Below, piece by piece: positions 50,051-64,000 of a DNA stretch of 64,000 nt. The stretch is taken from contig CAKNFP010000001.1 of the NCBI GenBank assembly GCA_930633525.1, positions 2,582,001-2,646,000 on the forward strand, in the 5' to 3' direction. A program made the position numbers and the translations under genes. The notes beneath the pieces are model-generated. The model was not told the DNA's origin. It saw only the letters and a program-made list of their open reading frames with translations, and made no database searches. The first letter of the stretch is position 1. Every line of letters begins with the position of its first letter. The DNA is from Hyphomicrobiales bacterium. Lineage in GTDB: Bacteria; Pseudomonadota; Alphaproteobacteria; Rhizobiales; Beijerinckiaceae.

Positions 50051-50749
50051 CTAGTCGACGATGATCGCGAGCTTGCAGTGACCATGCGCCGTCGAGGCGT
50101 GGAACGTCCGGCTATCCGGACGAACATCGCTCTTCCACTGATTGATGGCTCCGCCGAGCAAGTGAAGATGCATATCGTCCTGGATGACATTGATGTACTG
50201 CGGGCCGACTGTCAGGGCTCGCAGTCGCCCCGACCACGAGGTTGCGGCACCGAGGCCCTCAAACCTGATCTCGCAACGGCCTCCGGCATCGCGCGCCTCG
50301 CGGATGGGGATTGCAACGGGATCGTCGGGCGCAACCGCCGGCCCCTCGGGGAAGATGACCCTGGGAGCTGGTGAAGGCCGGCGGCGCGTCAGAGGCGCGA
50401 GGACATCAAGAAAAGCCTGCTCTCCATCGAGGCCCAGGATGGACAGCAGAATGCCGCCGTCGGCAGCGACCCAATCAATCTTGGGCTGATAGGTGTCATT
50501 GAGGCCAAGGATCGTGCTGAAAACAACCGAGCGAACGGTCTCGGTCGCCAGCATGAACCCGCAAGCCGCACCGCTGGCCGCTGATCCCGATGCGCGGATG
50601 ATTGTGTTCCCTTCGAGCTTTTCGAGGGGCATGAACAGCTCATGCGCCACACCGTCGTGGCGGACGACGGCCTGGATGACCGGCAACCGGGCGAGGCAGC
50701 TCAAAATGGCGAAAGGCGGATGCTGCAGTTCAAACGAAACGCTGCTCAT
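50051..50749 (-). CDS. ChuX/HemS-like protein of the cobalamin-riboswitch operon
   Basis: A 232-residue soluble protein without signal peptide. The C-terminal part reads V-G-P-Q-Y-I-N-V, then H-L-H-L-L-G-G-A-I-N-Q-W-K (194-206), which resembles the tetrapyrrole-binding core of ChuX/HutX and HemS proteins (x-H-L-x-x-x-x-I-x-x-W). The ending FHASTAHGHCKLAI has three histidines and a cysteine, unlike typical ChuX. It is the last gene of an operon led by a B12 riboswitch, 16 bases after the ATPase gene. A role in handling a corrin or other tetrapyrrole in the cytoplasm is an inference; the family call is tentative. Confidence 0.55.
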   Translation of the reverse strand: MSSVSFELQHPPFAILSCLARLPVIQAVVRHDGVAHELFMPLEKLEGNTIIRASGSAASGAACGFMLATETVRSVVFSTILGLNDTYQPKIDWVAADGGILLSILGLDGEQAFLDVLAPLTRRRPSPAPRVIFPEGPAVAPDDPVAIPIREARDAGGRCEIRFEGLGAATSWSGRLRALTVGPQYINVIQDDMHLHLLGGAINQWKSDVRPDSRTFHASTAHGHCKLAIIVD

Positions 50750-50764
50750 GCTTGCTTGCCCATT

Positions 50765-52189
50765 TCACGCCCCGAGTGCCAGCGTATCGTCCGCCACCGC
50801 CCGCACGATGTCGCGGCTGTGACTGATGAGCACGAGCGCCAGTTCGCCCCGATCCACCAAGCCCCGCAGCAAGCCGATCGTCTCCTTCTGCACAATGGGG
50901 TCGAGACGCGACGTGGGCTCATCGGCCACGATCAGTTTCGGCTCCAGCAATAAGATGCGGGCCAAGGCCAGTCGCTGCGCCTCCCCACCGGATATCTCGG
51001 CCGGGAAACGATCGAGAAGCCGCGGGGCCAGTTTCAGGCGATCGAGAATGGGGGCGAGGGCTGCGGCAACATCGAGGCGCGGGCGCACCTCGCGCAAATC
51101 GAGCAGATGCTGCCGGATCGTGCGATGCGGTGCAAAGGCGGCCGCGGGGTCCTGGTGAAGCTTCTGAAACCGGTGCCGCAGACGTCGCAGGCCGGCCCTG
51201 TCGCGATAGGGGTCGACGCCGGCCCAACTGATCTCGCCGCGGTCAGGCCGTTGCAGGCCGAGCAGGATATTGCCGAGCGTGGACTTTCCGCAGCCGCTTG
51301 GGCCGACGACGGCCAGAACGCCGCGCCGGGGCACGTGCAGCGTCACATCCTCGAACAGGGGCGAGAAACCGGGATAGCCGAAAGCGAGGCCATGCCCCGC
51401 CAAAGTCAGGTCATCCGTCACATGGCAGCGCAAGCAGCCGGGCCATGTCGCCGGGTCCGCCGCCAGCCACGCCATCGTGTAGGGATGACGGGGCGCCGTC
51501 AGAACGGTATCGGTGTCTCCCTTCTCCACGAATATTCCGTCCTTCATCACGGCGATCTCACCGCCCAGCGCACGCGCCAGAGCCAGGTCGTGCGAGATGA
51601 CGATCAGCGCGCGGCCGTTGTCGCGCAATTGGCGCAGCCTGGTGATGGCCTGGGTGATGCGTTCCTCGTCGAGCCCCTTGGTCGGCTCGTCGGCGATGAT
51701 CAGTGGTGCACGGGTCAGCAAGGCGCTGGCGAACAGGACGCGCTGCGCCATGCCGCCGGACAGCTCATGCGGGTAGGCGTCAAGCAACCCGGCGTCCAGG
51801 CCCACCGCGGCGAGCGCGGGCGCCAGCATGGCCGGCGCGGCGCCGCTGACCCCGGCCAGCTGCCGCCCGATGCGCATGGTCGGATCGAGGGCTGCTCGCG
51901 GCTCCTGCGGCTGGAGGATGATGTCCTCGGCCCAGCATTTGCGGAGATCCCCCGGGCGTGACAGGTCGATCATCGGGCCATTGCCGAAGCGCACAACGCC
52001 GCTCGCCGTGAAGCCCGGCGGCAGAAGACCCATGATGGCCTGCGCCACAAGGCTTTTGCCGCTACCTGTCTCGCCGATGATGACGAGAGACCCGCCGCTT
52101 GCGACATCGAGGGATATGTCGGTCACGATCGCGCCGCCATTGTGATCGCGGATCGTCAAGCCGGTGAGATGGAGGGCGGATCCGGTCAA
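50765..52189 (-). CDS. fused double ABC ATPase of peptide/nickel-type importer
   Basis: A 474-residue protein with two nucleotide-binding domains in tandem, as if DppD and DppF were fused. Domain 1: Walker A GETGSGKS (39-46), signature LSGGM (143-147), Walker B ADEPT (166-170). Domain 2: GPSGCGKST (296-304), ISGGE (399-403), ADEPTSRLD (422-430). Two cysteines (CLRCH, 252-256) lie in the inter-domain linker, as in many DppD-like proteins. Its GTG/ATG overlaps the permease stop by four bases. It powers the neighbouring importer. Confidence 0.93.
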   Translation of the reverse strand: MTGSALHLTGLTIRDHNGGAIVTDISLDVASGGSLVIIGETGSGKSLVAQAIMGLLPPGFTASGVVRFGNGPMIDLSRPGDLRKCWAEDIILQPQEPRAALDPTMRIGRQLAGVSGAAPAMLAPALAAVGLDAGLLDAYPHELSGGMAQRVLFASALLTRAPLIIADEPTKGLDEERITQAITRLRQLRDNGRALIVISHDLALARALGGEIAVMKDGIFVEKGDTDTVLTAPRHPYTMAWLAADPATWPGCLRCHVTDDLTLAGHGLAFGYPGFSPLFEDVTLHVPRRGVLAVVGPSGCGKSTLGNILLGLQRPDRGEISWAGVDPYRDRAGLRRLRHRFQKLHQDPAAAFAPHRTIRQHLLDLREVRPRLDVAAALAPILDRLKLAPRLLDRFPAEISGGEAQRLALARILLLEPKLIVADEPTSRLDPIVQKETIGLLRGLVDRGELALVLISHSRDIVRAVADDTLALGA

Positions 52190-53028
52190 GCCTCAGCCTC
52201 CCGTTGTGCGTAATGGGCGGTCAGCGCCTCGCCTGCGAGCGTGAAGGCGAGCACGGTGAAAAAGATCGCCACGCACGGCGCCGCCAGCTGGAGTTGCGCC
52301 TCACCGATATAGGGTAGCAGTTCGGCGATCATCACACCCCATTCGGGCTCCGGCGGCTGCAAGCCGAGACCGAGGAAGCCGAGCGAGGAAATGGACAGGA
52401 TGGCGGCGCCTATGCCCAACGTCGCCAGGGGAACGGTCTGGCGCAGCACCGGCGGCAGCACGTGGCGCATAAGGATGCGCCATGGCGCGAAGCCGGCCAG
52501 CTCCGCCGCCTCGACATGGGCCTCGGTCAGGATTCCCGCGGCCGTCGCACGGCTCATGCGTGCAAATTGCGGCCAGAGCGCCAGTTTGATGCCGAAGAGC
52601 AGCGGAATGACGCCGCCGCCCAGGAAGCCTGCCAGAAGCAGAGCCAGGAGAAGGCCGGGGAAGGCCAGCATGAGGTCGGCCAGCCGCATGATGATCGTGT
52701 CCGTCCAGCGCCCCGCTTAGGCCGCCACGATGCCGAGGCCGATCCCGACGGATGCGGCGAGGCCGACGCATAACACGGCGATGCCAAGCGAGCGCGGGGC
52801 GCCGTGGAGAAGGCGCGCCAGCATGTCGCGCCCCAAGGGGTCGGTGCCGAGCGGATGGGTAAGGCTCGGCCCGGCGAGGCTCATCAGGAGATTCTGCGCG
52901 GAGGGATCGACAGAGGTAAGGTAAGGGCCAAGAAGCGCGGTGCCGATCACAACCCCCACGAAGGTGAGGCCGAGGATCAGGCGTCCACGCGTCGCGGGCG
53001 GGCGGCCAGGCGGGGCGGCGCTCACCAT
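52186..53028 (-). pseudogene. peptide/nickel-type ABC permease (DppC-like), interrupted by an in-frame stop
   Basis: The frame runs from 53028 through 103 codons to G-L-G-I-V-A-A, meets TAA at 52717-52719, and continues in the same frame with A-G-R-W-T-D-T-I-I-M-R-L-A-D-L-M-L-A-F-P to the normal end at 52186. In intact DppC proteins a tyrosine sits in this place (V-A-A/G-Y-x-G-G), so one base change from TAC or TAT explains the stop. The second half still has the permease E-A-A-E-L-A-G-F loop for ATPase contact. Either a real nonsense mutation that should disable the importer, or a sequencing error. Restart at ATG 52689 is conceivable but would lack the first helices. Confidence 0.88.
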
Positions 53029-54020
53029 CGTCCGTCCTGCCGGCGGCGCGGATCGAGCGCGAGTGTACCGAGATCGGCTGCGAGATTGATCAAGGTATAG
53101 AACAGGCCGATGACCAGGCCGGCGCCCATGATGAGCGGCACATCGCGCGCGAGAAGAGCATTCACCAGCAACTCGCCAAGGCCTGGATAGTTGAACAGGG
53201 TCTCGGCCATGATGAAGCCGTCAACGATATAGGCAAATTGCAGAGCCGAGAACGTCACGATGGGGATAAGCGCATTCCGAATCCCATGCTGCGCGAAGGC
53301 CTGGCGGGCATCGAGGCCCTTGATCTGCGCGAAAGTCATGAAGAACGCGCGACGCACATCCACGACCGCATTGCGGATCAGCCGCACGGAGAAAGCCGCC
53401 AGGCCGAGCGCCAGCGTCGCAACCGGCAGCACCATATGGGCCGGTGTCCGAAAACCCGCCGGCGGGAACCAGTGCAGGGTGAGCGAGAACAGGGCAATGA
53501 GCCCGATACCCACCATGAAAGTTGGAAGCGAGGCAAAGACGACAGCGATCAGCAGCGTCGCGCGGTCGACCATGCCGCCGGGACGAAAGCCGGCCGCGAC
53601 ACCAATGGGTATGGCGATGAGATAGGACAGGACCCAGCTCAGGAACCCGAGCGTCAAGGTATTGCGGCCATACTGCCAGAGCGTTTCCCCGACGGGCCGC
53701 CGGGTGACCAGCGATTGGCCGAAATTGCCGGTGGCGAGTTGCGCCATCCAGGTCGTGTATTGCGCGACCAGCGGCCGGTCGAGACGCTCCTCGTTCCTGA
53801 TGCGGGCGGTGATGTCCGTGGTGACATTGCCTTCGCCGACACGCCCGTTGGCGATCCGCAAGGCGAGGTCTCCGGGCAGCATATGGACGAAGATGAAGCA
53901 AAGCGTCGCGACGATCCAGGCCGTCGCCAGCGCTTGCCCGAGGCGCGCCGCCACGACGCCGCGCCATCCCCTGAGATGGCGCGGCGCACGGCCTGGTTGC
54001 CGCAGAGCAACCGATGTCAC
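53022..54020 (-). CDS. peptide/nickel-type ABC permease (DppB-like)
   Basis: A 332-residue inner membrane permease, about six helices. The family N terminus is present (ALATAWIVATLCFIFVHMLPGD), along with the periplasmic loop with RLDRPLVAQYTTW and the cytoplasmic E-A-A-like loop VDVRRAFFMTFAQIKGLDAR. It starts with GTG at 54020 overlapping the stop of the binding-protein gene (GTGA) and ends 7 bases inside the next permease gene, so the set is translated together. Confidence 0.93.
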   Translation of the reverse strand: MTSVALRQPGRAPRHLRGWRGVVAARLGQALATAWIVATLCFIFVHMLPGDLALRIANGRVGEGNVTTDITARIRNEERLDRPLVAQYTTWMAQLATGNFGQSLVTRRPVGETLWQYGRNTLTLGFLSWVLSYLIAIPIGVAAGFRPGGMVDRATLLIAVVFASLPTFMVGIGLIALFSLTLHWFPPAGFRTPAHMVLPVATLALGLAAFSVRLIRNAVVDVRRAFFMTFAQIKGLDARQAFAQHGIRNALIPIVTFSALQFAYIVDGFIMAETLFNYPGLGELLVNALLARDVPLIMGAGLVIGLFYTLINLAADLGTLALDPRRRQDGRW

Positions 54021-55579
54021 GCGCGGGCCTTCACGCGGTCGAGATAGAGGCGCTGCTCGAACTGATCGTTCGTGAAGCCCTCGAGCGTTTTGGCAACCGA
54101 GAAGATCTGATCGTACCAGACGACCGGGATGACCGAGAGCTCGTCGTGAATCACACGGGCGATGCCTTTGCGCAGAGGGGCGCGTTGCTCCTCCTCCGTC
54201 GCGAGGAAATAGGCGGCGACATCCCTCCGGATTTCGTCATTGCGCCAGTTCGTCACGCCGCTGCCGCCGGTGATCGGCTCGTCGAGGGTGAAATCCGTCG
54301 CGATCGTGGAAATGGGATCTGGCAGGACCACGATATTGCGCGAGCTCAAGGCCAGATCGAGCGTGCCATCGCGCTGGCCCTCGTAGATCGCCGCATAATC
54401 GGTGACCTTGATCGCCATGTCATAGCCCACCGCCTTGAACATCGCCTGCAAGGCCGAAGCGATGACCGGCAGTTCAGGGCGATTGGCGAATGTCAGCATC
54501 GTACCGGCAAAGCGCACGCCATCCTTGCTGCGAATGCCATCGGCGCCGCGTGTCCAGCCGGCCTGGTCGAGCAGGTCGTTGGCGCCCTTGGCGTCGAAGC
54601 GATACGGCGCGAGCCCGTCTGAATACCAAAGCGGCAAAGTCGGCGGAAAATACTGGGTCGCCGCGAGTTCCGGATTGCGCATGATGCTCGTGGCGATGCC
54701 GACCCGGTCGATCGCCATATTGAGGGCGCGGCGCGTGCGCACATCCGCGAACTGCGGCTTGCCACAGTTCGGCATGATGTTGTGGATGCGCGGAACGATC
54801 ATCCGGTCAATCGTCAGGCTGTCGACGCGCGCAAGCCGGTTGAGGCTCGGCGTCGGCAGATTCATCACCACCCCGGCATCCCCGGCGATCGCGATATTGG
54901 CGCGCGTCTCGCCGTTGGGCACGGCATCGAATTGCGCGGCCGCGAAGCCCGCCTTGGGACCCCAGTAGCCATCATGCCGCGCCATCGTTATGCCGCGCGG
55001 GAGATCCATCGCCGTCACGCGGAAGGGGCCCGTGGCGATCGGCTGCTTGAACTCGCCATCGGAACCGAATGCGCTCGGCGCGAAGATGGCGGTCGAATAG
55101 TCGAGCATGTAGGACAGGAAGGGGCCGAACGGCTTGTCGAGCGAAAAGACAACCTCGTCCTCGACGGCCTGGATGTCCCTGATTCCCGCCGCCTTGATGT
55201 ACAGAGAGCGTGGCAGGAGACGCTCGAAGGACGCTTTCACCGCTTGGGGCGTAACCTGGGAACCGTCGTGGAAAAGCGCGTCCTTGCGCAGCTTCAGGCG
55301 CCATTCGCCGCCCGCTTGCCGCATCGACCAGCTTTCGGCCAAACCTGGAAGAATCGAGCCATCGCCGGCGAAACCGACGAGATTTTCGGAAATGCCCGCC
55401 CGGGTGTAGGCAAGGCTGCTTTCCGAGGGCCTGATACCGCGAATTTCCCAAGGCTGCACAGCGCGCAGCAGCGAGGCTTGGGCTTGCGCATTCATAGTGC
55501 CGAAGCGTGTGAATCCGGCACCGAATGCCAGGGCCGTACCGCCGGCCAGAAAGCCGCGACGAGAGGTTGCCACCATCAT
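54017..55579 (-). CDS. Tat-exported ABC substrate-binding protein, family 5
   Basis: A 520-residue extracytoplasmic binding protein of the DppA/NikA/OppA family (SBP_bac_5). The N terminus has a twin-arginine signal (TSRRGFLAGGTALAFGAGF). Family landmarks are LAESW, K-D-A-L-F-H-D-G, and R-R-A-L-N-M-A-I-D-R. Tat export means folding in the cytoplasm, often with a cofactor or metal chelate. Two ATGs (55579 and 55576) are equally placed after AGGAG. It is 105 bases downstream of the methyltransferase gene, behind the same riboswitch. The bound substrate cannot be read from sequence; cobalt chelates or corrinoid precursors fit the regulation. Confidence 0.92.
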   Translation of the reverse strand: MMVATSRRGFLAGGTALAFGAGFTRFGTMNAQAQASLLRAVQPWEIRGIRPSESSLAYTRAGISENLVGFAGDGSILPGLAESWSMRQAGGEWRLKLRKDALFHDGSQVTPQAVKASFERLLPRSLYIKAAGIRDIQAVEDEVVFSLDKPFGPFLSYMLDYSTAIFAPSAFGSDGEFKQPIATGPFRVTAMDLPRGITMARHDGYWGPKAGFAAAQFDAVPNGETRANIAIAGDAGVVMNLPTPSLNRLARVDSLTIDRMIVPRIHNIMPNCGKPQFADVRTRRALNMAIDRVGIATSIMRNPELAATQYFPPTLPLWYSDGLAPYRFDAKGANDLLDQAGWTRGADGIRSKDGVRFAGTMLTFANRPELPVIASALQAMFKAVGYDMAIKVTDYAAIYEGQRDGTLDLALSSRNIVVLPDPISTIATDFTLDEPITGGSGVTNWRNDEIRRDVAAYFLATEEEQRAPLRKGIARVIHDELSVIPVVWYDQIFSVAKTLEGFTNDQFEQRLYLDRVKARA

Positions 55580-55684
55580 GAACTCCTGAAGACAGAAATT
55601 GAAGCGCGACGCCGCGGGGCAGCGCGATGAGCGGTGCGGGCCACGTGTGGCGGCCCGAACACCAGAACGCCGAGACAGCTGCCC

Positions 55685-56509
55685 TTAGCGGACGCTGTCC
55701 GCCAGGCCGCGTGCGGAGGGCTTGCGCGCGGAAACGACAAAGCCATTGTCATAATTGGCGAAGAGCCCGAGCCGCTCTCGCCAGGTCGCGTCCCGCAGCT
55801 GCGAGCGCGGAACAGCGCCAAGGCCGCCCGCGCGGATCGCCGTGAAGCCCGCGGCCGCAAGCATCTCCTTCAGCCTTCCGGCGCGGAGCCCTTCGCTGAA
55901 GAAGAGCTGTGCGGCGATGCTGGCATGTGCGTCGGCATCGAACAGTTTGGGTTTTGGAGAGAGGCGGTCCCACAGCGCGCCGAAGCTGCCGAGCACCTTG
56001 CTGCGCCAACTGCGGGTGACCCAGTCACCATCGGCGATGATCAATGTGCCACCTGGTTTGAGGCAACGCAGCCAATCCCGGAATGCGGCATCGGGATCGA
56101 CGAGTGTCCAGACCAGATGGCGCGAGACGACGGCGTCATAGCTGTCGTCCGGCATCATGGTGTTTTCGGCGTCGCCGAGCAGGAAGCGCGCTGGCTGGCC
56201 ACGATGCTTCGCCTGGGCGCGCGCCACCATGTCCTCCGACAGGTCGATGCCGTCGACCCGGCATCCCAGCGCCAGGAGTACGCGAGTGAACTCGCCTGTG
56301 CCGGACGCAAGTTCGAGGACCCGCCCGCCCGCGATGTCGGGGGCGTGGGCCTGCACCAGTGACCGCCACGCTTCCAGTTCACCGGAGGAGCGGATCTTGT
56401 GGGCGACGGAGAGGTCGAAAGTCTCCGAGCGCTTCGACCAATAGGCGCGGATTTCGTCCTTGATCGAGTGATTGCGCCCGAAGGCGAGAACCGTAGTCGT
56501 CTCGCTCAT
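55685..56509 (-). CDS. class I SAM-dependent methyltransferase
   Basis: A 274-residue methyltransferase. Motif I is VLELASGTGEFT (64-75), with a following acidic residue at V-D-G-I-D-L-S, and motif post-I A-E-N-T-M-M-P-D-D-S-Y-D-A-V. The N terminus has a predicted amphipathic stretch, no signal peptide. The ATG at 56509 (MSETTTVLAFG) is preferred over 56569, whose 20 extra codons lack a ribosome site. It is the first gene after the cobalamin riboswitch. The methyl acceptor is unknown; similar genes head Dpp-type importer operons in other alphaproteobacteria, but I cannot verify that here. Confidence 0.82.
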   Translation of the reverse strand: MSETTTVLAFGRNHSIKDEIRAYWSKRSETFDLSVAHKIRSSGELEAWRSLVQAHAPDIAGGRVLELASGTGEFTRVLLALGCRVDGIDLSEDMVARAQAKHRGQPARFLLGDAENTMMPDDSYDAVVSRHLVWTLVDPDAAFRDWLRCLKPGGTLIIADGDWVTRSWRSKVLGSFGALWDRLSPKPKLFDADAHASIAAQLFFSEGLRAGRLKEMLAAAGFTAIRAGGLGAVPRSQLRDATWRERLGLFANYDNGFVVSARKPSARGLADSVR

Positions 56510-56669
56510 GTCAGCCGTCTCGCCAAGACGGTGTTGGGCGAGCCTGTCGGACCGATCATCTTGCTGCACACCCGCTCAAGACACATCACGGGATGCAGGC
56601 GATCGCTTTACTCGACGGCAAAGCCTAGGCTCCCGAGGCACCCCGCCCGACAGCAATCGTGTGGACGAT

Positions 56670-56831
56670 GGCAGGTCTCCTGGCTCGCGGGTCGATGCGC
56701 GGACCGCCTTCCCGGGAATAACCCAGTGGCCAATCGGTCCGGCGCTCACCGCTTACAGTTGCGGGGGCAGCTGCGGCATGGGGCCCGAAAGCCCGCACCG
56801 CATTCCCTTTTCACCTCGTCTCCGAGGCACC
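56670..56831 (-). ncRNA. cobalamin riboswitch (B12 element) controlling the ABC/methyltransferase operon
   Basis: On the minus strand the B12-box core GCCGCAGCTGCCCCCGCAAC is followed by TGTAAGCGG, then GAAGGC and the terminal GAGCCAGGAGACCTGCC. Upstream are GGTGCC and AAAAGGGAATGCGGTG, the usual P3-P6 conserved bases. About 160 bases separate its end from the methyltransferase ATG. Such elements repress expression when adenosyl- or hydroxocobalamin is bound. Confidence 0.95.
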
Positions 56832-56871
56832 ATCAATCGATTGCTGTATAATGCTGCGCAAACGACAACAC

Positions 56872-56962: not shown

Positions 56963-57874
56963 CTAAGCGTTTTCCGGAACGACCGTCGCGACGATCGAGG
57001 CATCGAGAGCCTCATAGCCCGCAAGGTCGATCGCGTCATAGAGGTCGGCGCGGGTCTGCATCTCACCGAGCATGGCCTTGGTCGAACCGTCACGCGCGAG
57101 CGTGGCGTAGAGCCTTTCCTGCGCCTTGTTGGCGACGCGCAGCGAGGAAACGGGCCAGATCACCATTCTGTAACCCATCTCCTCGAACTCCTTCGCTGTA
57201 AAAAAGGGCGTTCGGCCGAACTCGGTCATGTTGGCGAGAAGCGGCACGCCGGGCATGCGAGCCGCGAACTCCCTAAACATCTCCGCGGTGGTCAGCGCTT
57301 CGGGAAAGATGGCATCGGCGCCGGCCTGCATATAGAGCTGCGCCCGGGCAACCGCGCCGTCGATCCCCTCGCTCGCGGCCGCGTCGGTGCGTGCGATGAC
57401 ATAGAGGTCCCGGCGCGCCCTGACGGCTGCCGCGACCTTGGCGGCCATGTCGCGGGCATCGGCCAGCTTCTTGTCGTTGAGATGGCCGCATTTCTTCGGC
57501 AGAAGCTGATCCTCGATATGAACGGCACCAGCCCCGGCGCTCTCGAACGTCCGCACCATATGCATCACGTTGAGGGCCTCGCCGTAGCCGGTGTCGCCGT
57601 CGACCAGCAGCGGCAAGCCCGATGCCCGGCTGACCTGGCGGATGAAGAACGACACCTCGTCCACGGTAATGATGCCGAGATCGGGAATTCCCATCGACGC
57701 CGTCATCGCCGCTCCGGAGAGGTACAGCCCCGCGAACCCGGCCGCCTTCGCCTGCAGTGCGGCCATGCCGTTGTGAGCGCCGGGAAGCTGGGTGATGCCG
57801 CCACGCTGGACCAGCGCGCGGAAGCGGACGCCCGCCGACCTTTCCGGAAGATCCGAAGATACGAGATAAGGCAT
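56963..57874 (-). CDS. prpB: 2-methylisocitrate lyase
   Basis: A 303-residue lyase of the ICL/PEP mutase family that splits 2-methylisocitrate to pyruvate and succinate, the last step of the methylcitrate cycle. The catalytic KKCGH is at 127-131 (Cys129, matching Cys123 of Escherichia coli PrpB), with metal ligands in DGDTGYGE and VHIEDQ. It lies 9 bases after prpC. Transcription runs on toward the cobalamin riboswitch on the same strand. Confidence 0.95.
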   Translation of the reverse strand: MPYLVSSDLPERSAGVRFRALVQRGGITQLPGAHNGMAALQAKAAGFAGLYLSGAAMTASMGIPDLGIITVDEVSFFIRQVSRASGLPLLVDGDTGYGEALNVMHMVRTFESAGAGAVHIEDQLLPKKCGHLNDKKLADARDMAAKVAAAVRARRDLYVIARTDAAASEGIDGAVARAQLYMQAGADAIFPEALTTAEMFREFAARMPGVPLLANMTEFGRTPFFTAKEFEEMGYRMVIWPVSSLRVANKAQERLYATLARDGSTKAMLGEMQTRADLYDAIDLAGYEALDASIVATVVPENA

Positions 57875-57883
57875 TGTCTCTCC

Positions 57884-59050
57884 TCAGGCCGCCTTGCTGG
57901 CGGCGCCGGCCCGGCCCCGCCGCTCGATCGCCAGAAACTCGAGGTTCTCCGGGCCGATGTAATGCGCCGACGGACGGATGATCTTGTTATCCTGGCGCTG
58001 CTCGATGATGTGGGCAGCCCATCCCGAGGTGCGCGCGATCACGAAAAGCGGCGTGAACATCGCCGTCGGCACGCCCATCATGTGGTAGGAGACGGCGCTG
58101 AACCAGTCGAGGTTCGGGAACATCGCCTTGGCATCGGCCATGGTCGCCTCGATGCGCTCGGCAATGTCGAACATCTTCGTCGCGCCAGCCTCGACCGAGA
58201 GCTCCCGCGCGACGCCCTTGATGACCTTGTTGCGTGGATCAGCCACCGTATAGACGGGGTGGCCGAAGCCGATCACGACTTCCCTGGCCTCGACGCGGCG
58301 ACGGACGTCCGCCTCGGCCTCATCCGGGTCGGCGTAGCGCTTCTGAATTTCGAAGGCGACCTCGTTGGCCCCGCCATGTTTTGGCCCGCGCAGCGCGCCG
58401 ATCGCTCCCGTGATCGCCGAATAGACATCCGAGCCCGTGCTGGCGATCGAACGCGCGGTGAAGGTCGAGGCGTTGAACTCATGCTCCGCGTAGAGGATCA
58501 GCGAGACATGCATCGCCTTCACGTGGGACGGCTTCGGGGCCGCTCCATGCAGCAACCGCAGGAAGTGGCCGCCGATGGAATCGTCCTCCGTCTCAACCAC
58601 GATGCGCCGGCCGTTGTGGGCATAGTGATGCCAGTAGAGCAACATGGAGCCGAGCGAGGCGAGCAGACGATCAGCGATGTCGCGCGCTCCCGGATGGTTG
58701 TGATCATGGGCCTCGGGCAGGATGTTTCCGAGCACCGAGACACCGGTGCGCAGCACGTCCATCGGATGCGCGGAGGCCGGCAGCAGTTCGAGCGCCTGCT
58801 TGACCGCCTGCGGCAAGCCGCGCGAGGCCTTCAGCTTGGCCTTGTAGGCGGCCAGTTCCGCGACGGTCGGCAAAGCCCCATGGATCAGGAGATGCGCGAT
58901 CTCCTCGAATTCACAGGTCTCGGCCACGTCGAGAATGTCGTAGCCGCGATAATGCAGATCATTGCCGGTGCGGCCCACCGTACACAACGCCGTGTTCCCG
59001 GCGATGACGCCGGACAGCGCCACAGACTTCTTCGGCCTCGGTGCGGTCAT
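57884..59050 (-). CDS. prpC: 2-methylcitrate synthase
   Basis: A 388-residue citrate-synthase-family enzyme that condenses propionyl-CoA and oxaloacetate. Typical blocks are [17 protein letters not shown], the active-site [11 protein letters not shown] and G-F-G-H-P-V-Y, and the motif RPSAHYIGP. The ATG at 59050 begins [14 protein letters not shown]; 30 upstream codons of the open frame are not family-like. Between prpD and prpB in the operon. Confidence 0.94.
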
Positions 59051-59060
59051 TTCTTCCTCC

Positions 59061-60575
59061 CTATCGTTTCCAGTCGAAGATGCCGGTAGCGGCAGCGGGG
59101 CCAAGCTGTTCCGGACGAGCCACGAAATTGAGACCGGCAAGTTCCTGCGGCTTGAGGTCCAGAAGACGCTCGACGGTGGCGATGAAGCGATCCTGCTCGG
59201 CGCTGTCGATGACGCCCTCGGACAATGTGCGGAACTTCCTCACGTAATCCGCACGCGCGAAGGGACGCGCGCCGAGCGGATGCGCATCGGCCACCGCCAG
59301 TTCATCCGCGACGACCGTTCCGTCCTGCAAGGTGACCACGACCCGGCCGCCGAACGCCTTCTCCAGCGGATCGCGGCTGTGATAGCGGCGTGTCCATTCC
59401 GGGTCCTCGACGGTAGAGATCTTGTGCCAGAGCGCCACTGTTTCCGGCCTGGCGGCGCGCTCCGGGGCATAGGAGCGCACGTGATGCCAGCCCCCGTCCT
59501 CCAATGCGACCGCGAAGATATACATGATCGAATGGTCAAGCGTTTCACGGCTGGCTTTCGGATCCATCTTCTGAGGATCATTCGCACCCGTGCCGATCAC
59601 GTAGTGGGTGTGATGGCTGGTGTGGATGACGATGCTGCGGACCGTGGTCAGGTCGCCGATCTTCGGCCCCATGCGACGCGCCAGGTCGATGAGCGCCTGG
59701 CTCTGGTATTCAGCCGAATGCTCCTTGGTGTAGGTATCCATGATCGCGCGCTTGGACTCGCCTTTCTCCGGCAACGGCACGCTGTATTCAGCCGTCGGTC
59801 CGGAGAGTAGCCAGGCGATGAAGCCATCCTCGCCCTCCCAGGCCGGCGAGGGCGCCCCCTCCCCGCGCATGACGCGGTCCACGGCCTCGACGGCCATCTT
59901 GCCCGCGAAGGCCGGCGCATAGGCCTTCCAGCTCGAGATCTCGCCCTTGCGGGATTGGCGCGTCGTCGTCGTGACATGCAGAGCCTGCTGCACCGCCTGA
60001 TAGATGGTCTCCACGGACAGGCCGAGCGCGGTTCCGATGCCGGCGGCCGCCGACGGTCCGAGATGCGCGATATGGTCGATCTTGTGCTCGTGCAGGCAGA
60101 TGCCTTTGACGAGATTGACCTGGATCTCGTAACCGGTGGCGATGCCTCGCACGAGTGCCGCGCCGGAAAGCCCGCAATGCTGCGCGACGGCCAGGACCGG
60201 CGGAATATTGTCCGCCGGATGCGAGTAGTCGGCGGCGAGGAAGGTATCGTGGAAGTCGAGCTCGCGCACAGCCACGCCATTCGCCCAGGCCGCCCATTCG
60301 GGGGAGACACGCTTGGCCGCCGGCAGACCGAAAACGGTCGCGCCCGGCAGGAAAGGATGGGCCGATGCCTGGGCGCGCGCGCTGGCGACGGGGTGCCGTG
60401 CCAGCGAGGCCGCAGCCACGGCTGCGTTATCGAGGATGCGGTTGCCGACCATCTCGACGACGTCGGCATCGAGCGCGACGTTGTCGGCTGCCACCGCCGC
60501 GATCTTCCAGGCGAGTTGGTCTTCGCGCGCAAGTTTCTCAGCGGATGTGTATGTACGGACGTGGTGCGACTTCAC
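59061..60575 (-). CDS. prpD: 2-methylcitrate dehydratase
   Basis: A 504-residue MmgE/PrpD family dehydratase, acting on 2-methylcitrate. Typical features are the N-terminal helical domain, [11 protein letters not shown], and the C-terminal [10 protein letters not shown] region. Its length fits PrpD better than MmgE. The start is GTG at 60575, overlapping the thioesterase stop as GTGA. No aconitase/AcnD gene is in the window. Confidence 0.93.
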
Positions 60576-60988
60576 GAACGAATGTCCTCTCGATAGAGCG
60601 AAACTGTTGGAGGGATGAGCATCGGCGCTCCGTCGTCATCGACAGCTACCATCATGAAGCGGCCGGTGACGGACGGGGTGGCTTCTGGCGCATCCGGATT
60701 GTCAGGGAGGATGTCGACGACCACGGTCATCGAGGACCGCCCCTGCTCGACGATCCGCGCGCGAATATCGATGATGGATCCGATGCGGATCGGACGGACG
60801 AATTCGATGGTCTCGGCCTTGGCCATGACGACGGCGCAGCGAGCATGGCGCGTGGCGCAGATGAAGGCCGCCTTCCCCATGATATGCAGCGCGTTCGCGC
60901 CATAGAGCGTGCCGTAATGGTTGGCCTGTTCGGGAAGAACGACCTCGAGAAAGCGCGCCTCGCTCCGCTGTGCTCCAATTGCCTGCAT
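60572..60988 (-). CDS. acyl-CoA thioesterase, hotdog fold (YciA/BfiT type)
   Basis: A 138-residue single-hotdog thioesterase. The core [14 protein letters not shown]-x-H-x-M and the [14 protein letters not shown] motif are those of YciA-like acyl-CoA hydrolases. The ATG at 60988 is favoured; earlier in-frame ATGs at 61036 and 61027 run into the promoter region. It is the first gene of the prp operon and overlaps prpD, so it may hydrolyse propionyl-CoA or another short acyl-CoA when the pool is high. Substrate unverified. Confidence 0.8.
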
Positions 60989-61019
60989 GACCGGTGCTAT
61001 GTCCTGATGCCCTTTGCAG

Positions 61020-61105
61020 CTTCGCATTATCCGCATATGCTGATGGGCGAAAAGAACTGAAAATGCGAAGACTTGCGAAGCTAGATTCGCAACCTTGCAA
61101 AGTTT
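61020..61105. promoter_or_regulatory. repeat-rich operator region between prp operon and regulator
   Basis: Related half-sites are CTTCGCATT (61020-61028), AATGCGAAG (61062-61070), CTTGCGAAG (61072-61080), ATTCGCAA (61085-61092) and CCTTGCAAAGTTT (61093-61105). The first two are exact inverse complements. The last resembles the AA/GTTTGCAAA words bound by RamB/ScfR-type regulators. They lie between divergent genes, so both directions may be controlled. Confidence 0.6.
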
Positions 61106-61131
61106 GAGAATATTACGACTGGAGCTTGGAC

Positions 61132-62553
61132 GTGAAGAAGGCCTTCATGGGTGTGCGCCTGAAAAGGCTGCGGGAGGAGCGCCGGCTGACCCAGCAGACC
61201 CTCGCGGATACGCTCGGCATCTCGCTGAGCTATCTCAACCAGATCGAGAACAACCAGAGGCCGATGACGGTCCCCGTGTTGCTGAGGCTCAATGCGGCCT
61301 TCGGTACCGACGTCCAGCTTTTCGCCGACAATGACGAAGCGCGCCTGATCGGAGAGCTTCGTGATGTGCTGTCCGATCCCGTTGTGGGCGAAAGCATCGC
61401 GCTGGCCGACATCAAGGAACTGGCAAGCAACATGCCGGCACTCGCGCGCGCCTTTATCACGCAGGGCCAGCGGCTCAAACAAGCTTCCGAGCAGATCTCG
61501 GCTTATGCGACCCGTCTCGGCGACGATCGGCAAGGGCGTTCGGCAGCGCTGCCGTCGATTCCCTTCGAGGAGGTCCGGGACTTCTTCTATGCCAATCACA
61601 ATTACATCGATGTACTGGATCGGACTGCCGAGGCCGTTGCCCAGGAGCTCGGCATGCCGCTGGGCCGCATGGCCGACGCCATCGCGCGGCGACTGGAAGG
61701 CCGACATGGCGTAAGGCTGGCTGAGCTGCGCGATGATGATCGCGCGGGTGTCCAACGGAGCTTCGACAGCCAGACCCGCTCCCTGCATCTTTCGCGATGG
61801 CTTCTCCCCGGCCAGCAGGCTTTCCAGATGGCGACCCAGATCGCCTTTCTCGAACAGCGCGCGTTGATCGACGGACTGGCCGTGCAAGGCTCGTTCACAA
61901 ACGACGAGGCTCGCTCTCTGGCAAGGATTGGCCTCGCCAATTACTTTGCCGGCGCACTGGTTCTCCCCTATGCCCCGTTCCTGCAACGTGCCGAACAGCT
62001 GCGCTATGATATCGACCTGCTGAGCCGCGAGTTCGGCATGAGCTATGAGACGATCTGCCATCGGCTCAGCACACTTCAGCGCGCCGAGGCGCGCGGCGTG
62101 CCCTTCTTCTTCATACGCGTCGACAATGCCGGCAACATATCCAAGCGGCAGTCGGCTACGGATTTTCATTTCTCGCGTGTCGGCGGCACATGTCCCTTGT
62201 GGAACGTGTATGACGCCTTCTCCAATCCAGGAAAGACGCTGACGCAAATCGCGGAAATGCCGGACGGGCGCGCCTATCTCTGGATAGCCCGGATGGTCGA
62301 GAGTTCACGCGGCGGCTTCCGCGCGCCAGCCAAGCGATTCGCGATCGGCCTTGGCTGCGATCTGCTCCATGCCGAACGGCTCGTCTATTCGTTGGGCACC
62401 AATCCCGCCGACCGGACCGCGCGTGTCCTCATCGGCGCCGGATGCAGAGTGTGCGAACGCGCCAGATGTCCCCAGCGCGCCTTCCCGCCTTTGGCCAAGA
62501 CGCTCCTCGTCGACCACCAACGCAGCTTCTTCGCCCCCTATTCAACGACGTGA
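61132..62553 (+). CDS. XRE-family short-chain fatty acyl regulator (ScfR/RamB-like)
   Basis: A 473-residue regulator with an N-terminal XRE helix-turn-helix (about 5-60, LTQQTLADTLGISLSYLNQIE), a central IrrE-like/DUF955 domain and a C-terminal cysteine-rich DUF2083 domain (C-R-V-C-E-R-A-R-C-P). This is the layout of RamB, PrpR and ScfR, which control the methylcitrate and glyoxylate genes in response to acyl-CoA. GTG at 61132 has GGAG 7 bases before it; the TTG at 61126 is too close to that site. It is divergent from the prp operon. Confidence 0.9.
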   Translation: MKKAFMGVRLKRLREERRLTQQTLADTLGISLSYLNQIENNQRPMTVPVLLRLNAAFGTDVQLFADNDEARLIGELRDVLSDPVVGESIALADIKELASNMPALARAFITQGQRLKQASEQISAYATRLGDDRQGRSAALPSIPFEEVRDFFYANHNYIDVLDRTAEAVAQELGMPLGRMADAIARRLEGRHGVRLAELRDDDRAGVQRSFDSQTRSLHLSRWLLPGQQAFQMATQIAFLEQRALIDGLAVQGSFTNDEARSLARIGLANYFAGALVLPYAPFLQRAEQLRYDIDLLSREFGMSYETICHRLSTLQRAEARGVPFFFIRVDNAGNISKRQSATDFHFSRVGGTCPLWNVYDAFSNPGKTLTQIAEMPDGRAYLWIARMVESSRGGFRAPAKRFAIGLGCDLLHAERLVYSLGTNPADRTARVLIGAGCRVCERARCPQRAFPPLAKTLLVDHQRSFFAPYSTT

Positions 62554-62648
62554 GCGGCATGCGATGCGCGCCGTCGCACGGGCGATCCAGGGTCGGCGGG
62601 AAGCTCCATCTCATCGATGTAAAGATATAAACAACTCTTTATATGACG

Positions 62649-62677
62649 TTGACTTCCCTCTCCCGGCGTCTCAAGAT
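62649..62677 (+). promoter_or_regulatory. candidate metE promoter
   Basis: TTGACT (62649-62654), a 17-base spacer and CAAGAT (62672-62677) place the transcription start at the very beginning of the riboswitch. The -10 is weak but the geometry is right. Confidence 0.5.
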
Positions 62678-62685
62678 GCGCACGC

Positions 62686-62862
62686 CATGGTTCCCCGACA
62701 GGCTGCGTGCGGCGCGTCGGGGCTAAGAGGGAAGCCGGTGAGACACCGGCGCTGCCCCCGCAACTGTAAGCGGCGAGCCGATGCCCACGATGTCACTGAG
62801 GCGATAGCCTTGGGAAGACGGGCGGAGGCGACGACCTGCGAGCCAGGAGACCTGCCGTGGCG
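62686..62862 (+). ncRNA. cobalamin riboswitch upstream of metE
   Basis: The conserved core GCTGCCCCCGCAACTGTAAG is followed by GCGG, a long peripheral arm, GGAAGAC and the terminal GAGCCAGGAGACCTGCC. Upstream GGTTCC and AGAGGGAAGCCGGTG match the standard B12 element. It would reduce MetE when cobalamin is available and MetH can work. Confidence 0.95.
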
Positions 62863-62961
62863 AACAACGTCCACGGGCGGGGTGTCCCGGTGGTGCGCTC
62901 GACGACCCGTCTGGGCCTGGCTCCAGCTGGGCGATCGTCCCGCGTCCGCTCTGGCCTTTGC

Positions 62962-62977
62962 CCCCAAACTTTTGGGG
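62962..62977 (+). promoter_or_regulatory. hairpin sequestering the metE ribosome site
   Basis: CCCCAA pairs with TTGGGG around a four-base loop; the GGGG is the only purine-rich site upstream of the ATG (about 9 bases away). No T-run follows, so it looks like a translational switch for the riboswitch rather than a terminator. Confidence 0.6.
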
Positions 62978-62985
62978 TTAAGCCT

Positions 62986-64000
62986 ATGTCTCAACTATCA
63001 TCCGTCGCTGTCGCGACGCTAGGCACGCCGCGCATCGGCCCGCGCCGCGAACTCAAGATCGCGCTCGAAAGCTTCTGGTCCGGCAAGTCCGACGAGAAAG
63101 CGCTGCTGGAAACCGCCGCCGCCCTGCGCGCGGCGAACTGGGCACGCCAGAAATCCCAGGGGATCACGGTTATCCCCTCGAACGACTTCTCATTCTACGA
63201 TCAGGTGCTCGACACCAGCGTGATGGTCGGCGCCATCCCCTCCGCCTATGGCTGGACGGGCGGACCGGTATCGCTCGCGACCTATTTCGCGATGGCGCGC
63301 GGCTCGCAAGGTGAGGCGCAACCTCATGCCTGCGGCCACAGCCACCACGATCCTGAATCGTCCCATGGCGTCCCGGCCCAGGAAATGACGAAGTGGTTCG
63401 ACACCAATTATCACTACATGGTGCCCGAGTTCGAGGCCGGGCAGCGCTTTGAGCTCGCTTCCCTCAAGCCGGTCGAAGAGTACCGGGAGGCCAAGTCCCT
63501 CGGCTTCGAGACCCGTCCCGTCCTACTCGGCCCCGTCACCTTCCTGCGTCTCGGCAAGGCCAAGGATCCGTCCTTCGACCCGCTCGCGCTGCTGGGCGAT
63601 CTGCTGCCGGTCTATGTCGATGTCCTGCGCCGGCTCGCGGCGAATGGCGCGACATGGGTCCAGATCGACGAGCCCTGCCTCGTGCTCGACCTCGACGAAG
63701 CTGCGCAGGAGGCTTTGCGTCGAACCTACGCGCTGTTCGCGCATGCCTTGCCTGACCTGAAGATCATGCTCGCCACCTATTTCGGGGGCATCGGCGATAA
63801 CCTGGATACCGCGCTCTCGCTTCCTGTCGCCGGCCTGCATGTCGATCTGGTGCGAGCGCCGGAACAGCTCGATGAGGTGCTCGCGAAAGCGCCGCGTGGC
63901 CTGGTGTTGTCGCTGGGCGTCGTCGACGGCCGCAACATCTGGCGCACGGATCTCGAGAAGGTCCTCGACCGCGTGGCGCCCGTTGCGGCAAAGCGTGGGA
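62986..64000 (+). CDS. metE: B12-independent methionine synthase, 5' part
   Basis: The first 338 residues of MetE (5-methyltetrahydropteroyltriglutamate-homocysteine methyltransferase), normally about 760 residues; the rest lies outside the window. The N-terminal barrel shows GTPRIGPRRELKIALESFWSG-type residues and T-K-W-F-D-T-N-Y-H-Y-M-V-P-E. The catalytic zinc half (C-terminal barrel) is not visible. A histidine-rich insert (HACGHSHHDPESSHG, about 106-120) is not usual in MetE. It is controlled by the cobalamin riboswitch just upstream. Confidence 0.95.
   Translation, partial: MSQLSSVAVATLGTPRIGPRRELKIALESFWSGKSDEKALLETAAALRAANWARQKSQGITVIPSNDFSFYDQVLDTSVMVGAIPSAYGWTGGPVSLATYFAMARGSQGEAQPHACGHSHHDPESSHGVPAQEMTKWFDTNYHYMVPEFEAGQRFELASLKPVEEYREAKSLGFETRPVLLGPVTFLRLGKAKDPSFDPLALLGDLLPVYVDVLRRLAANGATWVQIDEPCLVLDLDEAAQEALRRTYALFAHALPDLKIMLATYFGGIGDNLDTALSLPVAGLHVDLVRAPEQLDEVLAKAPRGLVLSLGVVDGRNIWRTDLEKVLDRVAPVAAKRG

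Follow-up and report, generated by a model that had tools for sequence, protein, structure and literature searches.

Few systems are known for the uptake of trace cobalt for B12 or for the release of a metal from a tight chelator after import. Importers of the NikABCDE type have been predicted behind B12 riboswitches in C. tetani and D. hafniense (PMC2667541), and CbtJKL, encoded on pSymB of Sinorhizobium meliloti behind an adenosylcobalamin riboswitch, is a Co(II) importer with experimental support (PMC7689651; PMC12239276). Here we describe an operon from a 64,000-nucleotide stretch of a Hyphomicrobiales bacterium (contig CAKNFP010000001.1, positions 2,582,001 to 2,646,000, hereafter the window) in which a B12 riboswitch on the minus strand is followed by genes for a methyltransferase, a Nik-type importer and a HemS/ChuX-like protein. 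We think it rather probable that this is a B12-controlled cobalt-supply operon, in which a cobalt-chelate importer would be joined by a methyltransferase acting on the chelator and by a HemS-like holder.

The riboswitch aptamer (56653..56849, minus strand) matches the cobalamin model RF00174 over its full length (window 56849-56653, model positions 1-189 of 189) with 128.8 bits (gathering score 31.5), and its E-value of 4.9e-32 for the whole window excludes a chance match. It was recovered again in a search of the whole genome, and the complete minus-strand B12 riboswitch reported in an earlier note on this stretch is thereby confirmed. In the predicted fold of the leader that connects the aptamer to the methyltransferase start codon (56510..56652, minus strand) a CCGUCU/AGACGG hairpin stands immediately 5′ of the AUG, where it could conceivably mask the ribosome site; the leader folds no better than shuffled sequences (z-score 0.09). 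Then follow, all on the minus strand, a class I S-adenosylmethionine (SAM)-dependent methyltransferase, probably of small-molecule type (55685..56509; PF08241, 82.7 bits, cut-off 21.2; the list of open reading frames (ORFs) also allows a GTG start at 56569), a family-5, NikA-like substrate-binding protein (54017..55579; SBP_bac_5, 220.6 bits), permease B of the NikB/DppB type (53022..54020; BPD_transp_1, 119.1 bits), permease C in two pieces, a double ATPase in which the NikD and NikE (DppD and DppF) counterparts are fused into a single chain (50765..52189; ABC_tran in two stretches, 166.7 bits) and a compact HemS/ChuX-like protein of 232 amino acids with two half-domains (50051..50749). The N-terminal piece of permease C (52717..53028) ends at an in-frame TAA and just misses the OppC_N cut-off (21.5 of 23.9 bits), and the C-terminal piece (52186..52689) starts at an internal ATG and matches BPD_transp_1 with 70.7 bits. 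Each piece separately matches NikC models of NCBIfam, the first with 67.5 bits over model positions 3-86 and the second over positions 98-256. The binding protein carries the motif SRRGFLAG, a twin-arginine translocation (Tat)-like signal. The ORFs and Pfam matches bear out the gene set of the earlier note (methyltransferase, Tat-type family-5 binding protein, permeases, fused double ATPase); of its two permeases C is interrupted, which its title passed over although the check it proposed refers to an 'intact-permease relative'. Its statement that most of the genes overlap by 4 bases does not hold, as only two of the five junctions do so (binding protein/permease B and permease C/ATPase); permeases B and C overlap by 7 bases, and gaps of 105 and 15 bases separate the methyltransferase from the binding protein and the ATPase from the HemS-like gene, respectively.

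The importer shares with NikABCDE its superfamily, a NikA-related binding protein, permeases that match NikB and NikC models and the linkage to a B12 riboswitch (PMC2667541). NikA proteins are the best relatives of solved structure for the binding protein. However, every importer part misses the curated NCBIfam cut-offs for NikA to NikE: the binding protein reaches 216.7 of 600 and 175 of 393 bits with the NikA models, permease B 206.6 of 447 with NikB, the C-terminal piece of permease C 150.2 of 358 with NikC, and the fused ATPase 252.6 of 318.7 with NikD and 239.3 of 332.6 with NikE (the CntA model gives 119.2 of 800 bits on the binding protein, likewise below its cut-off). The two ATPases form one ORF with two ABC_tran stretches, unlike the separate NikD and NikE, and of the residues with which NikA binds its chelate (Arg97, Arg137, Tyr402 and His416; PMC2667541) an alignment numbered by hand finds one in four kept, an arginine at the Arg97 position. 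Because of the missed cut-offs, the fusion and the single chelate residue we regard the importer as a sister type of NikABCDE rather than NikABCDE itself, and one with a methyltransferase and a HemS-like gene in addition.

The linkage of this cassette to a B12 riboswitch is not confined to the window. From 60 relatives and 397 order genomes (18 of which gave matches at E ≤ 1e-75, own genome included) 22 other loci were opened, and at five of them (L053, L084, L085, L086 and L087) RF00174 lies within 2 kb upstream on the same strand, against a random expectation of 0.018 of the 22 (Poisson P for five or more, 1.6e-11). Three of these five loci belong to one genus, and P for three or more is 9.6e-7. 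At L084 and L087, and by eye at L085, a Peripla_BP_2 protein (CbtJ/BtuF family) stands between riboswitch and cassette, and L079, where a riboswitch and B12-synthesis-like genes lie downstream of the cassette, was excluded from the upstream count. A contig scan for named relatives yielded at least 80 loci, 43 of which (L172-L214) are 32-39% identical; riboswitches in L172-L251 were sought with a hand-made pattern that, set against Rfam, overlooked L086 and, under the strict setting applied here, one of the two in L153, and its three hits were confirmed by Rfam. Fulvimarina (L174) has a riboswitch directly upstream of the Nik-type cassette, followed by ATPase, CbtJ-like and permease genes in one run, Azospirillum (L213) has the order Nik-type cassette, riboswitch, CbtJKL-like genes, and in Agrobacterium vitis (L182) the riboswitch is upstream of a ribonucleotide-reductase-like pair (by eye) that precedes the cassette. 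The best relative of the binding protein on a plasmid, from Sinorhizobium medicae SU277 (41.5% identity), lies in a run of riboswitch, DUF1636 gene, distant methyltransferase, NikA-like binding protein, permeases, fused ATPase and EamA exporter. An EamA/DMT exporter gene also occurs inside or behind the Nik-type cassette at L052, L076, L078, L079 and L170. In a binding-protein tree of 67 rows the window and S. medicae proteins pair with 99% support (SH-aLRT), both on long branches, and by a quick method with one label per locus at least four changes of riboswitch label are needed. The riboswitch linkage of the cassette is recurrent across several lineages far above chance. This supports the proposal of the earlier note that B12 controls an importer of cobalt or of a cobalt chelate; that note had named as evidence against itself a finding that homologues never lie behind B12 riboswitches, and they do so at the five order loci, in S. 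medicae and in Fulvimarina.

The methyltransferase offers a comparison with CbtJKL. pSymB carries two RF00174 sites under stricter filters, and that at 66246-66475 is followed by genes for a CbtJ-like binding protein, a permease, an ATPase and a methyltransferase 44% identical to that of the window, an order that is annotated alike in S. meliloti RCAM1115. The pSymB record is unannotated, and we take this run to be cbtJKL, judged by its content and replicon. A B12 riboswitch in first position, an ABC (ATP-binding cassette) importer and the methyltransferase, which in S. meliloti comes after the ATPase, are thus common to both operons, the membership of the methyltransferase being an observation of the present analysis and one that supports the earlier note in treating it as a partner of the importer. 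In contrast, CbtJ is a Peripla_BP_2 protein (PF01497) in a FecBCD-type set, whereas the window combines SBP_bac_5 with NikBC-type permeases, a fused ATPase and a HemS-like gene; a BtuF-like PF01497 binding protein with a FecCD-type permease, as expected of CbtJKL, is not found there (SBP_bac_5 and BPD_transp_1 are). The best NCBIfam model for the S. meliloti CbtJ-like protein (L169, 6645-7709) is the siderophore-binding EitA, with 336.8 bits against a cut-off of 640, and CbtJKL itself may for this reason carry a chelate. No methyltransferase is annotated in the Pantoea plasmid stretch that was reached via EitA.

Relatives of the methyltransferase (E ≤ 1e-30) occur at 34 places in 31 of the 397 order genomes. 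We opened 22 of the 34, counting the window and the further copy that its genome holds, and left out 12 matches (in G269, G235, G413, G058, G393, G238, G208, G154, G183, G211 and G407, and the second in G084). At all 22 loci a metal-chelate-type ABC importer adjoins the methyltransferase. Two are Nik-type, namely the window and L076, where a methyltransferase 54% identical stands directly 5′ of the binding-protein gene; six are CbtJ-type (L151, L153, L154, L156, L157 and L160); and 14 are siderophore-type, a label ('Fe-type') that was given from sequence, with the ferrichrome/ferrioxamine model at 240.7 of 374 bits. At five of the six CbtJ-type loci RF00174 is found upstream on the same strand at a distance of 3.1-3.6 kb; at the sixth this distance is 7.2 kb, and the riboswitch precedes an nrdAB-like pair (by eye). 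With the window and L076 set aside, this makes five riboswitches at 20 loci against 0.030 expected, three of the five being from one genus. On plasmids, an ABC importer adjoins the methyltransferase at three of three loci (L169, L170 and L171, the methyltransferase of L170 being distant) and at six of six annotated plasmid loci (Roseomonas, Chelatococcus, Cereibacter, Shinella, Ensifer and S. meliloti RCAM1115), although for Shinella only a permease and an ATPase are annotated. Leaving Shinella out, a riboswitch stands directly before the importer in four of the five annotated plasmid records searched; the search of the Chelatococcus plasmid gave none, and there the importer is annotated as iron-type and the methyltransferase gene is divergent. 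The own genome's second methyltransferase (L168, G000:C1:2310473) is likewise divergent from genes for a siderophore-type binding protein, permease and ATPase. The Roseomonas, Cereibacter and Ensifer loci (L253, L255 and L257) also hold, with the riboswitch-controlled importer and methyltransferase, a gene for the copper protein pseudoazurin, which could possibly serve as an electron donor for Co(III) chelates.

In a methyltransferase tree of 25 rows the CbtJ-linked proteins form one clade (support 99/99) and those of the window and L076 another (99/97), both within a group (88/85) that also takes in two siderophore-linked methyltransferases and stands apart from the remaining siderophore-linked ones. 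The three importer labels need 3 changes on this tree, compared with 9.1 when shuffled; together with the clades this indicates that the methyltransferase follows the importer type. The window protein has the class I SAM methyltransferase domain and a Rossmann fold, its AlphaFold2 model has a mean predicted local distance difference test (pLDDT) of 92.0, and the best Foldseek matches are phosphoethanolamine, NovO/CouO and RebM-type methyltransferases. These model-based matches suggest a small molecule as substrate, and the chelator, as something that all three importer types could have in common, would be the obvious candidate. PADLOC returned a methyltransferase-domain match only.

A methyltransferase beside a Nik-type importer might also make a metallophore, by methylating a common metabolite that is exported and then reimported with its metal, by analogy with staphylopine and pseudopaline. 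The window shares with those (Cnt) systems metal-chelate import of the NikA/CntA type, both the NikA and the CntA model matching the binding protein under their cut-offs. Further, EamA-type exporters, the class that exports pseudopaline (PMC5719457), are found within the cassettes of G017, G240 and two G406 loci and after the S. medicae cassette (checked with Pfam for G017 and S. medicae, by eye for the others), and in Massilia, Acidovorax and Azotobacter the cassette is immediately preceded by TonB receptors (by eye). However, the window differs in its B12 riboswitch control and in lacking synthesis genes: nicotianamine-synthase, opine-dehydrogenase and CntL/CntM types are absent among the operon's ORFs, the genome at large not having been searched for CntL/CntM. 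The window operon contains no exporter, none was seen in the CbtJKL-type operons, and a single methyltransferase would be a very short pathway. We therefore consider metallophore synthesis quite improbable for this operon.

The last gene of the operon sets it apart from NikABCDE and CbtJKL. Neither Pfam nor NCBIfam yields a match to the HemS-like protein itself at E 0.001, a search of solved structures with the single sequence gives a best E-value of 1.4, a search of a protein database returns itself and one close relative only (P0002, about 78-79% identity), and a pattern scan of the genome contigs found no relatives; a profile that includes its paralogues was needed for more. With the protein and its relatives, the profile finds the solved HemS, ChuS and PhuS (E 3.5e-12 to 6.7e-11), mostly via the second half-domain, and 184 proteins in all, of which nearly all of the 120 listed are annotated with PF05171/PF06228-type domains. 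Four relatives from outside the operon (24-31% identity) pass PF05171 (HemS) in four of four cases and PF06228 (ChuX_HutX) in three of four. The AlphaFold2 model (pLDDT 93.8) matches HemS by Foldseek with an E-value of 1.3e-12 and a template-modeling (TM) score of 0.78 over the query length, and the nine best hits are all HemS, ChuS or PhuS (E 1e-12 to 7e-11, TM scores 0.70-0.78). Profile, Pfam matches of the relatives and predicted structure agree, and on this modelled fold the ChuX/HemS-like call of the earlier note is right. The protein has in common with HemS/ChuS/PhuS and ChuX/HutX the fold of two half-domains and the motifs His36-Glu37 and Asp192-x-His194-Leu-His196, with His36, Glu37, His194 and His196 kept in 43 of 43 aligned rows. 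In contrast, it has 232 residues rather than about 345, belongs to a B12-controlled operon rather than to heme uptake and has five conserved residues changed, the operon pair departing from the residues of the 41 other rows at positions 38, 63, 78, 79 and 83 (position 85 is as in the majority). The changed residues may reflect a changed ligand. Since non-self matches in the order genomes are at most 33% identical, the gene would be a local addition, found as part of such an operon only here and probably in one relative. The neighbours of the own-genome paralogue are genes for ChaN, for an SbmA/BacA-like ABC protein and for a TonB heme receptor that passes the TIGR01786 cut-off. A heme-type cluster of TonB heme receptor, HemS-like protein, in some cases ChaN, and SbmA/BacA-like protein recurs in the genus and in others (L013 5514-11250 and L014-L018; Pfam and NCBIfam checks on L013).

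The cargo could instead be a tetrapyrrole with cobalt, such as cobinamide, another incomplete corrinoid or a metalloporphyrin, which the HemS-like protein would receive in the cytoplasm and whose ring the methyltransferase would complete or alter. In favour of this are the high confidence of the predicted HemS fold, the place of the own-genome paralogue in a heme-uptake cluster and the existence of heme binders, HbpA for example, among family-5 binding proteins. When four of the methyltransferases were scanned with NCBIfam, the model for CpaM (corrinoid-protein-associated methyltransferase) also came out among the best, though far under its cut-off. Against these stand the departures of the operon pair from the 41 other aligned members and the fact that no relative of the HemS-like protein was found at the other riboswitch-controlled cassettes. 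In addition, the methyltransferase also accompanies siderophore-type importers and the cbtJKL-type genes of S. meliloti, for which Co(II) is the reported cargo (PMC7689651). A tetrapyrrole cargo thus seems unlikely to us. Of the cargoes considered by the earlier note, cobalt or a cobalt chelate is supported and a corrinoid less so, as the latter leans mainly on the HemS-like gene.

Several observations weigh against cobalt as the cargo of the importer. Seven of the 12 marked order relatives adjoin CobW/COG0523, DUF1636, Fur-type or ZnuA genes rather than a B12 riboswitch, so that the metal could differ among relatives or be broad; the zinc labels derive from the neighbouring genes. A DUF1636 gene or piece precedes the cassette at L052, L076, L077, L078 and L079, being the only marker at L077; the other four also have a CobW-type GTPase (at L076 a piece only) and a divergent Fur-family gene (calls by eye and tblastn, with Pfam checks on L052 and L079), and L081 and L055 adjoin ZnuA-type and CobW-type genes (Pfam check of one each, the other by eye). 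DUF1636 is a family that occurs beside B12 genes too. The methyltransferase and binding protein of G406 (L076) share such a CobW/DUF1636/Fur context, and 10 of the 22 order loci carry no marker at all. Among the 43 named relatives, 36 lack every marker that was looked for, whether B12 riboswitch or Zur/COG0523/ZnuA, so that cobalt need not be the cargo throughout the cassette family and a single fixed cargo seems unlikely; zinc-type markers were seen at L172, L178, L200 and L202, and the methyltransferase in none of the 43, whose flanks were fetched. To these come the absence of three of the four NikA chelate residues, a HemS-like gene that a simple model of cobalt-ion import does not account for, and the split permease C, by which import in the assembled strain may be impaired unless the sequence was read wrong.

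This in-frame stop, the absence of a metal marker from most named relatives and the lack of any binding-protein match above 38% identity in three other genomes of the genus searched could together be taken to mean that an ordinary peptide or nickel importer landed behind the riboswitch by chance and is decaying. We find this very hard to credit, as the riboswitch linkage recurs in several lineages, the ATPase and HemS-like ORFs 3′ of the split permease are both open, and relatives of the methyltransferase (90%, P0122) and of the HemS-like protein (79%, P0002) are both listed on a JGI contig of the same size, 59,745 bases, which suggests that the operon is maintained elsewhere.

In the favoured reading, that of a cobalt-supply operon, the riboswitch would permit expression when adenosylcobalamin is scarce and shut it off when B12 is plentiful, as expected from its class. 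The NikA-like protein would capture periplasmic cobalt, most likely not as the free ion but bound by a small organic chelator. The two permeases, driven by the double ATPase, would then pump this cargo into the cytoplasm, as their family and genomic company suggest. The methyltransferase would most likely methylate the chelator, either after import to help free the metal or before export to make the chelator. More tentatively, the HemS-like protein would probably hold the cargo, the released cobalt or a cobalt-containing tetrapyrrole on its way to B12 synthesis. It is a speculative extension that uptake is coupled to methylation more widely, with one methyltransferase family partnering the unrelated Nik-, CbtJKL- (behind B12 riboswitches) and ferric-siderophore-type importers and modifying the chelator, cobalt or iron being released or trapped in the cytoplasm, and with a HemS-like pocket rebuilt here for a cobalt cargo and not for heme.

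B12-riboswitch NikABCDE (PMC2667541) and CbtJKL are already known, which qualifies the earlier note's remark that no such system had been described, but no described system with both a methyltransferase and a HemS-like protein was found in the literature searched; new within our searches are the combination, the methyltransferase as partner and the HemS-like addition. In that literature (on CbtJKL, NikABCDE, the riboswitch, Irp6A, EitABCD and metallophores) the accessible texts do not name a methyltransferase in cobalt uptake, although Cheng et al. 2011 could mention one, and the main text of a 2013 survey of the B12 regulon (PMC3766115) contains none of the terms 'nika', 'dpp' and 'methyltransferase'. 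The same literature assigns no role to the methyltransferase that recurs beside cbtJKL-type, siderophore-type and Nik-type importers. If it is needed for the use of cobalt, it reveals an overlooked step of metal uptake, and the riboswitch-controlled Nik-type cassette would add a class of cobalt importer and correct routine annotations as 'peptide/nickel'.

The surroundings of the operon and the other riboswitches of the genome complete this description. In the whole-genome search the 7.16-Mb genome has five RF00174 sites, which head the operon, metE, a class I nrdAB, a CbtA-DUF1636-CobW-CobN run and a FecBCD-type importer (by eye in the case of DUF1636 and of the binding protein and permease of the FecBCD type); this is the usual cobalt/B12-economy set. 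The metE site is a second riboswitch within the window (62671-62873, plus strand, 136 bits), and the window end cuts metE itself. The minus strand upstream of the operon carries the methylcitrate-cycle genes prpB and prpC, both exceeding their NCBIfam cut-offs, and an MmgE/PrpD-like ORF named by eye. Genes of B12 bypass, namely prpB, prpC, the MmgE/PrpD-like ORF and the riboswitch-controlled metE, are thus clustered beside the operon (window 56963-63999).

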